Assembly (NCBI RefSeq): GCF_001746835.1
Contig: NZ_CP016094.1
Coordinates: 1,860,001-1,924,000 of the forward strand
From: Lacunisphaera limnophila
GTDB taxonomy: Bacteria; Verrucomicrobiota; Verrucomicrobiia; Opitutales; Opitutaceae
Length of the DNA: 64,000 bases
Direction: 5' to 3'
In this document: positions 15,715 through 18,852 of the stretch, one piece after another
How positions within the stretch are numbered: position 1 is the first letter of the stretch
Layout: each line of letters opens with the position of its first letter
Made by a program: the position numbers and the translations under genes
Notes under the pieces: generated by a model
Database searches by the model: none
The model's input: only the letters and a program-made list of their open reading frames with translations
Told to the model about the DNA's origin: nothing

Positions 15715-15973
15715 GCCGGGCGCCGGCGGGTCGACCGGGCTGGTCCACCCCGGCGCCGGGAACCTTGACGGGGTAAAAACGGTCTGGTTTCCCTTCACGC
15801 ACGGGGTCACCCGTCGGCTGCGCCCACCCCTGCTTTCCCCTCCACGCCAAATTCCGGGAATACTTTCACGGCCCCTGTCCTCCTATTGGTCCAATCCTTT
15901 CCTGCTGCCCGTGGCATGGTGCCGTCGTGGCGGTTTCGAAACCCAAAATCCAAAAATCCAAAATCCTGCTCCC
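15715..15973. promoter_or_regulatory. upstream region of the MNIO operon
   Basis: A 259-base gap that should hold the operon promoter. A GC-rich hairpin around a GGCGCC core lies at about 15719-15762. A GGAAT element (15857-15861) is followed 15 bases later by GTC (15877-15879). This resembles an ECF-sigma promoter, but the match is weak. A small dyad ATTGG-T-CCAAT lies at 15885-15895. Three copies of AAAATCC stand nearly head to tail at 15945-15966, just before the start codon. No clear Shine-Dalgarno sequence precedes the ATG at 15974. Confidence 0.3.
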
Positions 15974-16339
15974 ATGAACAAATCGAAGCGTCTCATCATC
16001 ACCGCGGCCGCCCTGGCCGGTCTCTATGCTGGCGGTCTCGCGGTCAAGGCCACCGCCGCCGAATCCGGCGCCACCACCCCGTCCGGCGAAAAGGCCAAGG
16101 ACGCTTGCAAGGGCAAGGACGGCTGTAAGGCCAAGGAAGGCAAGGATGGCTGCAAGGGTAAGGACGGTTGCAAGGCGAAAGAGGGCAAGGACGCCTGCAA
16201 GAGCAAGGATGGCTGCAAGGGCAAGGACACCTGCAAGAGCGCCGACGGCAAGGACACCTGCAAGGCCAAGGAAGGCTGCAAGGCGAAGGAAGGCTGCAAG
16301 AGCAAGGACGGCTGCAAGGCCGCCGAAGAGAAGAAGTGA
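15974..16339 (+). CDS. secreted Cys/Lys-repeat peptide, probable bufferin/HvfA-like RiPP metallophore precursor
   Basis: A 121-residue protein. Residues 1-29 form a Sec signal peptide (basic MNKSKR, hydrophobic core, ATAA-type end). The mature part is almost only K, G, D/E, A and C. It contains 11 cysteines at 45, 51, 60, 66, 75, 81, 87, 96, 102, 108 and 114, each in a K-[DE]-[GAT]-C-K unit, spaced 6 or 9 residues apart. The next genes encode a DUF692 (MNIO) oxidase and its DUF2063 partner. In known systems these convert Cys of short exported peptides (BufA, HvfA) into copper-binding heterocycles. By analogy these cysteines are the modification sites. That the peptide is modified and binds copper is inference. 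The repeat unit differs from the EGKCG unit I know for this class. Confidence 0.72.
   Translation: MNKSKRLIITAAALAGLYAGGLAVKATAAESGATTPSGEKAKDACKGKDGCKAKEGKDGCKGKDGCKAKEGKDACKSKDGCKGKDTCKSADGKDTCKAKEGCKAKEGCKSKDGCKAAEEKK
16098..16330 (+). repeat. in-frame tandem repeats encoding KDGCK units
   Basis: Imperfect 18-base and 27-base units around aaggacggctgcaag recur 11 times inside the precursor gene. All unit lengths are multiples of nine bases, so the frame and the Cys phase are kept. The pattern suggests growth by unequal exchange. Confidence 0.85.
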
Positions 16340-16386
16340 TTTCCGTCCGGCGATCCGCGATTTCCGCGGGCCGCCGTTGATTTTCC

Positions 16387-16450
16387 GGAGACCGGGCCCC
16401 GCGGCCCGGTCTCCGCTGGTTTGAGATGGAGCCCGCTCCGTGAGCGGGCT
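16387..16450 (+). promoter_or_regulatory. two strong hairpins between precursor and MNIO genes
   Basis: The first is a perfect 12-bp stem (16387-16398 with 16403-16414) and a 4-base loop. The second is a 9-bp stem (16430-16438 with 16442-16450) and a 3-base loop. Neither has a long T-run, so they are poor full terminators. They could partly block transcription or protect the upstream mRNA end, giving much more precursor than enzyme. The second hairpin also resembles the dispersed palindromes seen elsewhere in this window. Confidence 0.5.
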
Positions 16451-16501
16451 TAACCTGCCCGGAGGTCAGGTTCCACCTCCCCGAATTTCGTTTCCCCTGT
16501 C

Positions 16502-17386
16502 ATGCCCGCCAATCCTTACAACGGCTTCACCGACTACGGCATCGGCCTGGGGCTGCGCGTGCCGCACTACGACCACATCCTCGCGGAAAAACCGACGGTG
16601 GACTGGTTCGAGATCATCTCCGAGACCTTCATGGTGGAGGGCGGCCGGCCGCTGGAAGTGCTCGACCGCATCCTCGCCCAGTACCGGGTCGTCCAGCACG
16701 GCGTGTCGCTGTACTTCGGCTCGGCGGACAAGCCGGACCGCGCGCACCTGAAGAAGCTCAAGGCTCTCACGCAGCGCACGAAGACGCCCTGGCTTTCCGA
16801 CCACCTCTGCTGGGGCAGCGTGGATGGCACGTACTCGCACGACCTGCTGCCGATGCCGTACACCCTGGCCGCCGCGCGGCACACGGCCGAGAAGATCCGC
16901 ATGGTGCGCGATTACCTGGAGCTGCCGATTGCGGTCGAAAACGTCAGTTCCTACACCGAATTTCATGTCTCCGAGATGACCGAGTGGGAATTCCTCACCG
17001 AGGTTGTCGAGCGGGCCGACTGCGGAATCCTGCTCGACGTGAACAATATCTACGTCTCGTCCAAGAACCACGGCTTCGATCCCTATGAGTACGTGAACCA
17101 CGTGCCGCACCACCGCGTCGCGCAGATGCACATCGCCGGGCACACGAAATTCGAGAAGTACATCCTCGATACGCACGACCATCCCGTCCTCGACCCCGTG
17201 TGGCAGCTCTACGCCCACGCCATCCGGAAGTGCGGCGTGACCGCCACGCTCCTCGAGTGGGACGACAAGATCCCCTCTTTCCAAGAAGTCCACGACGAGG
17301 CCCTCAAGGCCAATCAGTTCATCGCCCAAGCCCGTGAAGCAAAAATCCCCCTCCCGCCGAAAACCCGCCGCACCCGCCCGCGTTGA
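16502..17386 (+). CDS. DUF692 multinuclear non-haem iron oxidase (MNIO), BufB/HvfB-like
   Basis: A 294-residue cytoplasmic TIM-barrel enzyme, the usual length for UPF0276/DUF692. Family motifs are all present: QHGVSLYFG (His66), WLSDHLCWG (Asp100, His101), AVENVSSY (Glu146, Asn147), LLDVNNIYVSSKNHGFD (Asp179, Asn181), MHIAGH (His210, His214), DTHDHPV (His225-His227 region) and EWDDKIP (Glu252). These supply the multi-iron site. Relatives (MbnB, HvfB, BufB) oxidise Cys residues of a peptide substrate, often with a partner protein. The substrate here is probably the Cys-repeat peptide encoded 162 bases upstream. The ATG at 16502 fits the conserved N-terminus; no strong Shine-Dalgarno is visible. 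The partner gene begins inside its 3' end. Confidence 0.92.
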   Translation: MPANPYNGFTDYGIGLGLRVPHYDHILAEKPTVDWFEIISETFMVEGGRPLEVLDRILAQYRVVQHGVSLYFGSADKPDRAHLKKLKALTQRTKTPWLSDHLCWGSVDGTYSHDLLPMPYTLAAARHTAEKIRMVRDYLELPIAVENVSSYTEFHVSEMTEWEFLTEVVERADCGILLDVNNIYVSSKNHGFDPYEYVNHVPHHRVAQMHIAGHTKFEKYILDTHDHPVLDPVWQLYAHAIRKCGVTATLLEWDDKIPSFQEVHDEALKANQFIAQAREAKIPLPPKTRRTRPR

Positions 17387-18278
17387 TTCCTCGCGCGACC
17401 TGGCCGGCCTGCAGCGGGCCGTCTGGGGGCTCGTGTCCCAGCCGCTCACGGCGCGCAACCGCATGCGGCCGCGCACGCCCGGGGGCCGGTCCACCGCGGC
17501 GGTGGCGGGGGAGATCGCGAAGCCCAACGACCGGCTGACCGCCTTCGAGCGCCTCGAGATCTACAACCGCATGTATTGGTTCCGCGTGCTCGACAGCCTG
17601 GCTGAGGACTGCCCGGGCCTGCGCGCCGTGCTTGGCGAGCGGAAATTCCTGCGCCTGGCCGAGGCTTACCTACAGCGATATCCCTCGCGTTCGTACACGC
17701 TCCGGAACCTGCCGGCCCGCCTGGAGCGGTTCATCCGCGAGGAGCCGCAATGGACCAAGCCGCACACCGCGCTCTGCCGCGATCTCGCCCGCTTCGAGTG
17801 GGCGCAGGTGGAGGTGTACGACGGGGCCACGTTGCCGCGCTTCACGGTGGAGGATCTCCGCGGGGCCAACCCCGCGAGACTCCGCCTGGCGCTCCAGCCC
17901 TATCTCCAGCTGCTGCTGCTCGACTATCCGGTGGATGACTTCCTGATCGCCATCAAGAAACGCGAGGCGCTCCTCCGCGGGGACGCGAGCAATGCCCCGA
18001 CGGGGGTGCGGACGACGAAGAAGGTCCGGATTCCGCGGCCGAAGCGCCAGCGCTGTGCCGTGGCGGTGCACCGGCTGGATGGACGGATTTATTTCAAGCG
18101 GCTCGAGCCCGCCGCCTGCCAGGTGCTGCTCGCCCTCCGCGCCGGCCGGCCGCTCGCCGCCGCGCTGGCAGCGGGCCTGCCGGCCCGGTCCCGGCAATCC
18201 GGCGAAGCGCTCGCCGCGCAGGTGCAGGGCTGGTTCACCACGTGGATGCAGCTCGGGTGGTTCTGCCGGCGGACCTAG
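17334..18278 (+). CDS. DUF2063 family MNIO partner protein (BufC/HvfC-like)
   Basis: A 314-residue protein. After a basic N-terminus (MKQKSPSRRKPAAPAR), residues about 22-130 match the DUF2063 putative DNA-binding domain (DLAGLQRAVWGLVSQPL, LTAFERLEIYNRMYWFRVLDSLAEDCPGL). The rest forms a second, less conserved domain ending in a Trp-rich helix. In methanobactin and bufferin-type loci the protein next to the MNIO binds the precursor and is needed for modification. That role is inferred here from position. The GTG start at 17334 lies 53 bases inside the MNIO gene, implying coupled translation. A later start near 17386 is possible but would remove only the basic tail. Confidence 0.82.
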   Translation: MKQKSPSRRKPAAPARVDSSRDLAGLQRAVWGLVSQPLTARNRMRPRTPGGRSTAAVAGEIAKPNDRLTAFERLEIYNRMYWFRVLDSLAEDCPGLRAVLGERKFLRLAEAYLQRYPSRSYTLRNLPARLERFIREEPQWTKPHTALCRDLARFEWAQVEVYDGATLPRFTVEDLRGANPARLRLALQPYLQLLLLDYPVDDFLIAIKKREALLRGDASNAPTGVRTTKKVRIPRPKRQRCAVAVHRLDGRIYFKRLEPAACQVLLALRAGRPLAAALAAGLPARSRQSGEALAAQVQGWFTTWMQLGWFCRRT

Positions 18279-18285
18279 GGAGTAG

Positions 18286-18334
18286 GCGGCGGGCTGGCTC
18301 ACGCCACGGTCGTGGCGCCAGTGAGCTGGCCGCC
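18286..18334. repeat. REP-like imperfect palindrome
   Basis: Arms ggcgg...ccgcc enclose ctggctcac / gtgagctgg and an inner perfect gccacg-gt-cgtggc. There is no T-run. It lies between the DUF2063 and doxX genes and is similar in style to palindromes at 18864-18924, 24347-24397 and 43509-43560. Confidence 0.6.
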
Positions 18335-18390
18335 CACGGGTGAGGGAATAATGGCGCGGATCAACGCTCTCATTCACACTCATCACACCC

Positions 18391-18852
18391 ATGCACCTTC
18401 GTCCCTTGCTCGCCAAGTTTGATACCGCCGCCGCTTATCTCCAATCGCCGCTGCTGCTCGCCCTCCGCCTCTACTGGGGCTGGCAGTTCGCGCAGACCGG
18501 TTGGGGCAAGCTCATGAACCTCGACCGCACGGCGGGGTTCTTTGCCTCGCTCGACATCCCCCTGCCCAAGCTCAACGCCGTGATGGCCGGCGGCACCGAG
18601 TGCCTGGGCGGCGTTTTGCTTTTGCTCGGGCTCTTCGCCCGCCCGGCCGCAGTTCCGTTGATCTTCACCATGCTCGTGGCTTACGGGACGGCCGATCGTG
18701 ACGCCTTGAACGCCATCGTCAGCAATCCCGACGAATTCGTCACCGCCGCCCCGTTCCTGTTCCTGCTGGCCTCGCTCATCGTACTGGCGTTCGGGCCCGG
18801 CAAGCTCTCGCTCGACGCGATGCTAGGCAAGGGCGGCGGGGCCTCGAAATAA
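18391..18852 (+). CDS. DoxX family membrane protein
   Basis: A 153-residue protein with four predicted membrane helices and the DoxX-type start (LLALRLYWGWQFAQTGWGKL). The family is loosely linked to redox and thiol chemistry, and DoxX genes often accompany DUF692/DUF2063/bufferin-type operons. It is last in this collinear group, 112 bases after the DUF2063 gene, with a palindrome between. It probably belongs to the same operon, but a separate promoter cannot be excluded. A direct role in electron supply or copper handling is conjecture. Confidence 0.85.
   Translation: MHLRPLLAKFDTAAAYLQSPLLLALRLYWGWQFAQTGWGKLMNLDRTAGFFASLDIPLPKLNAVMAGGTECLGGVLLLLGLFARPAAVPLIFTMLVAYGTADRDALNAIVSNPDEFVTAAPFLFLLASLIVLAFGPGKLSLDAMLGKGGGASK

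Follow-up and report, generated by a model that had tools for sequence, protein, structure and literature searches.

A bufferin-type operon with a coreless Cys-Lys repeat precursor and a predicted ECF-type promoter in Lacunisphaera limnophila

Described bufferin systems and the Lacunisphaera locus

Bufferins and captophorins are an already known kind of MNIO locus, and among them the BufA2/Buf2 systems with BufB2-BufC2 resemble the four-gene operon analysed here, which lies at positions 15974-18852 of a 64,000-nt stretch of Lacunisphaera limnophila NZ_CP016094.1 (hereafter the window). An Asp following the catalytic Asp of the MNIO has been published for Cys-Lys enzymes. According to PMC12452194, Buf2 is the second largest precursor group, published precursors hold up to 58 Cys in the EGKCG family and 12 in Buf2, signal-peptide precursors that adjoin MNIO genes, have 1-18 Cys and belong to no class number in the hundreds, and sigma-factor and NrsF genes are found in Buf1 but not Buf2 clusters. 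PMC13097082 reports that the fontiphorin enzyme did not process those motifs under test in which Cys is followed by a charged residue, and PMC3511200 and PMC7907618 describe extracytoplasmic function (ECF) regulons in Caulobacter and Haemophilus that bring together MNIO operons, DoxX and other periplasmic reductases. Within the literature covered, with subscription journals largely outside it, no publication was found that deals with Opitutaceae bufferins or with a Buf2 regulon such as that predicted below, and nothing was found on Buf2 regulation.

The window locus encodes a signal-peptide precursor with 11 Cys, an MNIO, a DUF2063 partner and a DoxX protein, all collinear on the + strand (Table 1), and this arrangement, as given in a preliminary description of the DNA, was confirmed by open reading frames and Pfam scores above cut-offs. 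It is like BufA2/Buf2 in its Sec-type precursor-MNIO-DUF2063-DoxX order, its Cys-Lys (CK) sites, its homologous precursor and the Asp after the catalytic Asp; unlike BufA2/Buf2, it has no six-Cys core, carries 11 all-CK sites in repeats of 6 or 9 residues and gives no BufA2 profile match and has a predicted ECF-type promoter and msrA/msrB regulon, PMC12452194 reporting no sigma-factor genes in Buf2 clusters. With the EGKCG precursors (HvfA/oxazolin, fontiphorin, gonophorin and bulbicupramide) it shares a tandem-repeat precursor, either exported or led by a leader, in which modification sites recur, and an MNIO with a DUF2063 partner, but its units are Cys-Lys rather than Lys-Cys-Gly and its enzyme carries EWDD. 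The unclassified precursors of PMC12452194 could include the window type, and the emphasis of the earlier description on the site number needs correction, as 11 sites lie within the published maxima. The predicted ECF-type promoter before bufA is the new part here. Overall, we regard the locus as probably a bufferin-type (Cys-Lys captophorin) operon, encoding an ECF-controlled bufferin of envelope copper and oxidant stress with an evolvable number of sites.

Precursor descent and maturase matching

The N-terminus of the precursor (MNKSKRLIITAAALAGLYAGGLAVKATAA) is hydrophobic and by eye resembles a Sec signal, a region conserved in relatives as MNKSTRLIITAAAxAGLYAG, and the 92-residue tail after it holds 27 Lys and 11 Cys (calculated pI 9.0). 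The DNA of the array consists of overlapping tandem-repeat rows with periods of 9 to 81 bp, including 18, 27, 45 and 63. A profile of ten canonical six-Cys relatives (A3) retrieved the window precursor at E 4e-15, a score to which the signal region contributes, with the next place in the 4.2-Mb genome at 0.19. Because of this match, the precursor is best described, at the sequence level, as a coreless, repeat-expanded descendant of BufA2 within the Cys-Lys class, and graded intermediates between six-Cys and coreless precursors were seen. Buf1 (DUF2282, PF10048) was not among the Pfam matches of the window proteins at E up to 1, and the precursor sequence held no EGKCG repeats. A collagen-like adhesin was also considered and rejected, as the weak Pfam and NCBIfam collagen/SclB matches were all under cut-offs and were attributed to repeat composition; an Rfam search returned one chance match.

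The first family search covered 95 genomes, 26 of which had a PF05114 match, and gave the loci L001-L024 (window included), all from one family; four loci with distant or fragmentary MNIO matches and without such a precursor (L025-L028) were left out of the counts. An orthologous precursor with a related N-terminus lay directly upstream of a strong bufferin-type MNIO in all 24, and dN/dS of the window precursor against three relatives was 0.17-0.23, indicating purifying selection; for both reasons the gene arrangement is beyond chance. A wider search of 387 genomes led to six further same-family loci, of which five (L029, L041, L052, L056 and L042) encoded a related precursor, so that the presence of the peptide gene beside the MNIO in relatives, set beforehand as a test, was borne out. 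The precursor profile matched 25 of the 95 genomes, 24 of them with a bufferin-type MNIO; in the remaining genome, G036, the match contained one internal stop and lay 208 nt from a contig end. With the BufA2 profile itself (NF050166) and E up to 0.01, 21 orthologues were recovered from the set of 24, in which the window is counted, and seven relatives scanned singly scored 34-51 bits.

Cys number in these 24 precursors spans 6 to 14. Using the core pattern C..KN.C.G.GGC, which we derived from the relatives, 11 are canonical six-Cys forms (gaps 6,6,7,6,6; two cores each), eight have extra Cys plus cores (the six-Cys form of L019 sits among these in the tree) and five, namely the window, L005, L018, L020 and L021, are coreless. 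Four of the coreless precursors have every Cys in CK context (11/11, 10/10, 10/10 and 9/9) and the fifth has 10 of 11. In the 11 six-Cys relatives, Lys follows Cys1 and Cys4 without exception, Cys3 in four and Cys6 in none; coreless arrays thus keep the CK-type Cys and drop the other type, and by analogy with Buf1 in PMC12452194 the dropped Cys may have been structural (disulfide). The L017 and L019 enzymes are nearly identical (path ~0.03), yet their precursors hold 11 and 6 Cys, and therefore the repeats change fast. On the MNIO tree the coreless type requires two label changes, while a single clade was not rejected (approximately unbiased test, p 0.417). Loss of the core in five of 24 loci might instead mark a decaying BufA2, in which the core was lost by drift and the array is functionless, but dN/dS of 0.07-0.23 in four coreless pairs, the retained CK context and the retained promoter motif make this highly improbable.

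Among 80 named loci, 73 had a precursor, six had none and one hit was spurious. At least one core was present in 59 of the 73; a further five were coreless poly-CK forms (L005 and L020 re-found, plus Candidatus Didemnitutus, Cephaloticoccus and an Opitutia metagenome-assembled genome (MAG)), eight were acidobacterial four-Cys forms and one was degenerate. More coreless arrays were found in L029, L052 and L056 and, outside the family, in L035. The acidobacterial forms (L103, L109, L110, L116, L118, L124, L125 and L133) are four-Cys BufA2 relatives in which GGG stands in place of the first core GGC or that GGC is lost, and in family f30 (L044, L049, L051 and L054; genomes of 2.2-2.5 Mb) the precursors are very short, with SCWC, SSWC or SCC at the C-terminus and only two Cys-Lys units.

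The MNIO, the single one found in the whole genome (one 4.2-Mb contig), scored 341.3 bits against NF050167 (MNIO_BufB), above the equivalog cut-off of 310, and fell under the cut-offs for HvfB, ApyH, ChrH and MbnB. Among its nearest named records, all from Opitutaceae and other Verrucomicrobiota MAGs, are those of Oleiharenicola sp. (85% identity) and a Verrucomicrobiota MAG (94%). EWDD occurs in the window MNIO and throughout L001-L024, whereas H. somni 3bww has RDF; the window therefore carries the sequence marks of Cys-Lys captophorins, with 11 of 11 Cys in CK context and Asp after the catalytic Asp, and not the Phe at that position that marks HvfA/EGKCG enzymes. Across 109 distinct loci, with CK type defined as CK at at least half of the Cys, Asp was present in 93 of 100 CK-type loci and in 4 of the 9 remaining ones (Fisher p 7e-4, with no correction for kinship). 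Three loci of family f29 (L055, L057 and L058) have a bufferin-type MNIO after signal-peptide precursors with highly charged Cys-Pro repeats, mostly DDCPGKDK-like and DDCPDKDK in L058, and Gly replaces the Asp after the catalytic Asp; from their sequences these precursors are possibly a further substrate class.

The DUF2063 partner, homologues of which were found at 103 of 104 loci (a count in which seven contigs appear twice), was modelled with AlphaFold2 at pLDDT 90.8, and its three Protein Data Bank matches by Foldseek at E up to 0.001 were TglI in 8hi7 (E 1.4e-5) and 8hci and NGO1945 in 3dee (E 9.7e-5). By its DUF2063 domain and RRE-like C-terminal domain it is of PME-type 1, although the HvfC profile score of 51 bits (cut-off 142) weighs against that assignment; NGO1945_C scored 15.8 bits at its C-terminus, under the cut-off of 27. 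DoxX reached 73.4 bits against NF050144 (HvfX), just under the cut-off of 80. Membership of the MNIO superfamily and a weak MbnB match (36.6 bits) could also suggest a secreted, methanobactin-like chalkophore for copper uptake; given an MbnB cut-off of 325, a partner without an MbnC match at E up to 1, a Sec-type signal in place of a leader and a predicted regulon resembling stress repair, we attach very little probability to it.

Taken together, these results uphold the preliminary description of a bufferin-like locus as regards the bufferin-type MNIO operon, the exported multi-Cys precursor and the fold of the partner, but not its view of the precursor as new, since it is not unrelated to known forms and descends from BufA2. 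Several observations nonetheless weigh against descent and modification as proposed here. The BufA2 profile (curated cut-off 60 bits, which the seven singly scanned relatives also missed) gave no match to the window precursor at E up to 1. The BufA2 core is entirely gone from it (11 Cys and no cores, against 6 or 12 Cys in the Buf_6/12Cys class), and its model is disordered and of low confidence (pLDDT 46). The Asp rule is not absolute, as seven CK-type loci have Ala, Ser or Asn and four non-CK loci have Asp. The sixth additional same-family locus, L030, has a BufB-type MNIO with EWDA and no such precursor. In L030 the MNIO adjoins a 237-aa Cys-containing open reading frame that holds HGCAGGNSCANLGGC and, by eye, a Tat-like signal. 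Finally, a doxX homologue was undetected in 23 of 104 loci, some of which are cut. The lost core, the missing BufA2 match and the disordered model would suit an unmodified, metallothionein-like Cys/Lys protein beside an MNIO that acts on another substrate. This we judge improbable, as neither another MNIO nor, at E below 0.19, a further precursor turned up in the genome, precursor and MNIO adjoin in 24 of 24 loci, every Cys stands in CK context and EWDD is present in all 24.

Promoter motif and predicted regulon

GGAATA was present in 47 of 89 distinct upstream regions (3.8 expected from shuffles) and upstream of bufA in each of L001-L024, invariably with CTC 16-17 nt on. A strict pattern had four sites in the genome (0.56 expected from window base composition, Poisson P 0.003; reversed control 0), belonging to bufA, doxX, an exported 283-aa protein and, 7 nt downstream of its site, an exported MsrB, and a relaxed pattern had six (reversed control 0), the two extra sites belonging to an ECF sigma factor gene and, 6 nt downstream, an exported MsrA. 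The MsrA and MsrB matches scored 204.5 and 183.5 bits. The 283-aa protein (L147:3358-4209; C1:2153857 onward), which lies behind the same motif, matched nothing in Pfam at E up to 0.01 or in NCBIfam at E up to 0.001. Strict sites numbered 72 against 14 for the reversed pattern in 37 same-family genomes and 50 against 33 in 20 genomes of other families in the order; the signal is therefore mainly at family level, and chance may account for many of the single sites elsewhere.

The ECF gene (C1:37826-38371, - strand) was first found via the motif in relatives; the motif was present at all 16 located ECF genes, while 11 of 27 loci could not be anchored. Among 38 genomes searched, the gene (E up to 1e-20) occurred in 14 of the 15 with a bufferin MNIO. 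For msrB, 17 of 18 same-family loci could be anchored, 14 with the relaxed and seven with the strict motif (chance ~0.013 each), and those without the motif (G002, G005 and G007) were in genomes without an ECF match. The relaxed motif also preceded nine of ten located doxX genes in L001-L024, the doxX start not being located in 31 of 55 loci, and in G024 bufA, bufB, bufC, doxX, ECF and anti-sigma genes are contiguous. The anti-sigma-like gene follows the ECF gene (L205:1587-2324), and its product has weak DUF3379 similarity, one apparent membrane segment and, beyond it on the presumed periplasmic side, two conserved Cys in each of the five proteins found among 20 loci, features that make it a possible sensor. 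NrsF was considered as the anti-sigma factor and rejected, with no match in the genome.

These patterns suggest that one stress switch serves both the bufferin operon and genes of oxidised-methionine repair, and we infer that the sigma factor really uses the motif. Several observations weaken this reading: the motif at ECF genes was checked in the same genus only, 9 of the 23 genomes that lack a bufferin MNIO also have the ECF gene, G008 has a bufferin MNIO and motifs yet no ECF match at 1e-20, and in L059-L089 the motif precedes only three of 14 located doxX genes and is absent from 11.

The predicted regulon is like those of Caulobacter sigma-F (Buf1) and H. influenzae RpoE2 in ECF control of an MNIO operon, DoxX and a periplasmic repair reductase, the last being msrAB and mtsZ in Haemophilus and CC2748/YedY in Caulobacter. 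CC2748/YedY we take to be the methionine-sulfoxide reductase MsrP. Unlike both, the window has a different anti-sigma-like protein and a Buf2-class operon; the Caulobacter promoter is GTAACC-N16-CGAA, and the window genome is without an NrsF match. As an acidobacterial promoter, the loose Caulobacter motif was rejected (1 of 28). Upstream of acidobacterial bufA2 in eight loci (L097, L109, L116, L118, L123, L125, L129 and L137), TGTAACC stands some 16 nt ahead of a CTC or GTC, an arrangement that is perhaps another ECF-type promoter.

Transcription of the locus is not simple co-transcription as judged from its sequence, because 17 of 24 loci have a terminator-like hairpin between bufA and bufB, and a separate promoter is predicted for doxX. 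The 17 have a stem of at least 8 bp plus a T-rich tail (shuffles: mean 0.3, maximum 2), the 24 loci being kin and not independent. The intergenic region of the window folds with a z of -5.2, but its hairpin has a T-poor tail and the window is not among the 17, which counts against partial termination as a source of precursor excess, a role that we nonetheless infer. A scan for sigma-70 promoters found none, nor did it report the hairpin between bufA and bufB as a terminator. An inverted repeat resembling GGCAxGGTGCC (15913-15923), between the predicted promoter and the bufA start, is kept in several relatives and is possibly a leader hairpin or operator. The DUF2063 gene overlaps the MNIO 3' end by 53 nt, provided that its GTG start is right, and an upstream D-2-hydroxyacid dehydrogenase gene, considered as an operon member, had homologues in 25 of 104 loci and was treated as synteny.

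Table 1. Features of the bufferin-type locus in the window.
Feature	Position	Strand	Remarks
ECF-type promoter of precursor gene (predicted)	15857..15886	+	GGAATA-N17-CTCCTAT, ~88 nt 5' of start codon
bufA-like precursor gene	15974..16339	+	ATG start; 121 aa, 11 Cys, all 11 followed by Lys
Sec-type signal peptide of precursor	15974..16060	+	~29 aa, lipobox absent; judged by eye
Cys-Lys repeat array	16106..16318	+	mostly C-K-x-K-(D/E)-x units, Cys spacing 6 or 9 aa
Hairpin between precursor and MNIO genes	16386..16415	+	13-bp perfect GC-rich stem, terminator/attenuator-like, T-tract weak
Second hairpin, 5' of MNIO gene	16430..16450	+	9-bp stem
bufB-like MNIO maturase	16502..17386	+	294 aa; PF05114 355 bits (cut-off 25); Asp254-Asp255 pair
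bufC-like DUF2063 partner (PME-type 1), RRE-like C-terminal domain	17334..18278	+	PF09836 53.7 bits (cut-off 27.2)
Second ECF-type promoter, before doxX (predicted)	18345..18373	+	GGAATA-N16-CTCTCAT
DoxX-family membrane protein	18391..18852	+	PF07681 78.8 bits (cut-off 23.6)

Proposed function in envelope stress

Gene content, the families of enzyme and partner, BufA2 homology, the all-CK array and the promoter motif with its sites are supported by sequence, and on them we build a mechanism in which thiooxazoles, their stoichiometry, the processing order, copper binding and the inducing signal are conjectural. An envelope-stress ECF sigma factor would activate the precursor gene as well as, separately from it, doxX, msrA and msrB, and much of the transcript would stop at the hairpin after the precursor gene, leaving substrate in excess of enzyme. 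The DUF2063/RRE partner would then bind the N-terminal signal region and feed the Cys-Lys units successively to the MNIO, the Asp255 of which would contact the Lys after each Cys; each Cys would lose 4 H and become a 5-thiooxazole with a soft sulfur ligand. Sec would export the product as a flexible, positively charged chain with up to 11 soft-metal sites, copper first, and in the periplasm this chain would limit copper-driven oxidation while MsrA and MsrB repair methionine.

The preliminary description had offered copper storage or buffering as the role. Because the predicted regulon holds exported MsrA, exported MsrB and DoxX, buffering in the periplasm as part of an envelope-stress response is a likelier role than storage. 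The same regulon, with its ECF gene, would also fit a primary role in oxidant defence, in which a thiol/thiooxazole polymer acts as a sacrificial periplasmic scavenger (of hypochlorite or peroxide, for example) and metal binding is secondary, and oxidant rather than copper could be the inducing signal, a further point against our preferred reading. PMC7907618 favours this role: in H. influenzae, msrAB and a DoxX/DUF2063 cluster are under the control of RpoE2, whose gene responds to HOCl and H2O2. Other sources oppose it: PMC12452194 and PMC13097082 link such peptides to copper, the promoter of a related (DUF2282) operon is induced by copper and gold (PMC5413113) and a similar ECF regulon is linked to heavy metal (PMC3511200). 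We therefore consider a primarily oxidant-directed role rather unlikely, though it overlaps the copper-buffering explanation, the two not being exclusive, and both roles may hold.

A broader proposal, which we advance tentatively and as falling somewhat short of probable, is that metallophore capacity is set by tandem repeats: slippage of 18 or 27 bp would add or remove whole sites, the BufA2 core would have been discarded in some lineages to leave an unfolded poly-site chain, and a dedicated ECF regulon would couple soft-metal buffering to export-side MsrA/MsrB repair. The coreless all-Cys-Lys array would separate site chemistry from the BufA2 core and would lend itself naturally as a substrate on which to test iterative MNIO processing and the Asp-Lys specificity rule. 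If true, the predicted six-site ECF regulon, with a Buf2 operon, MsrA, MsrB and DoxX, would parallel the Caulobacter (Buf1) and Haemophilus (EGKCG) regulons, and these parallels would point to one recurring and testable job for such metallophores in envelope copper and oxidant stress.

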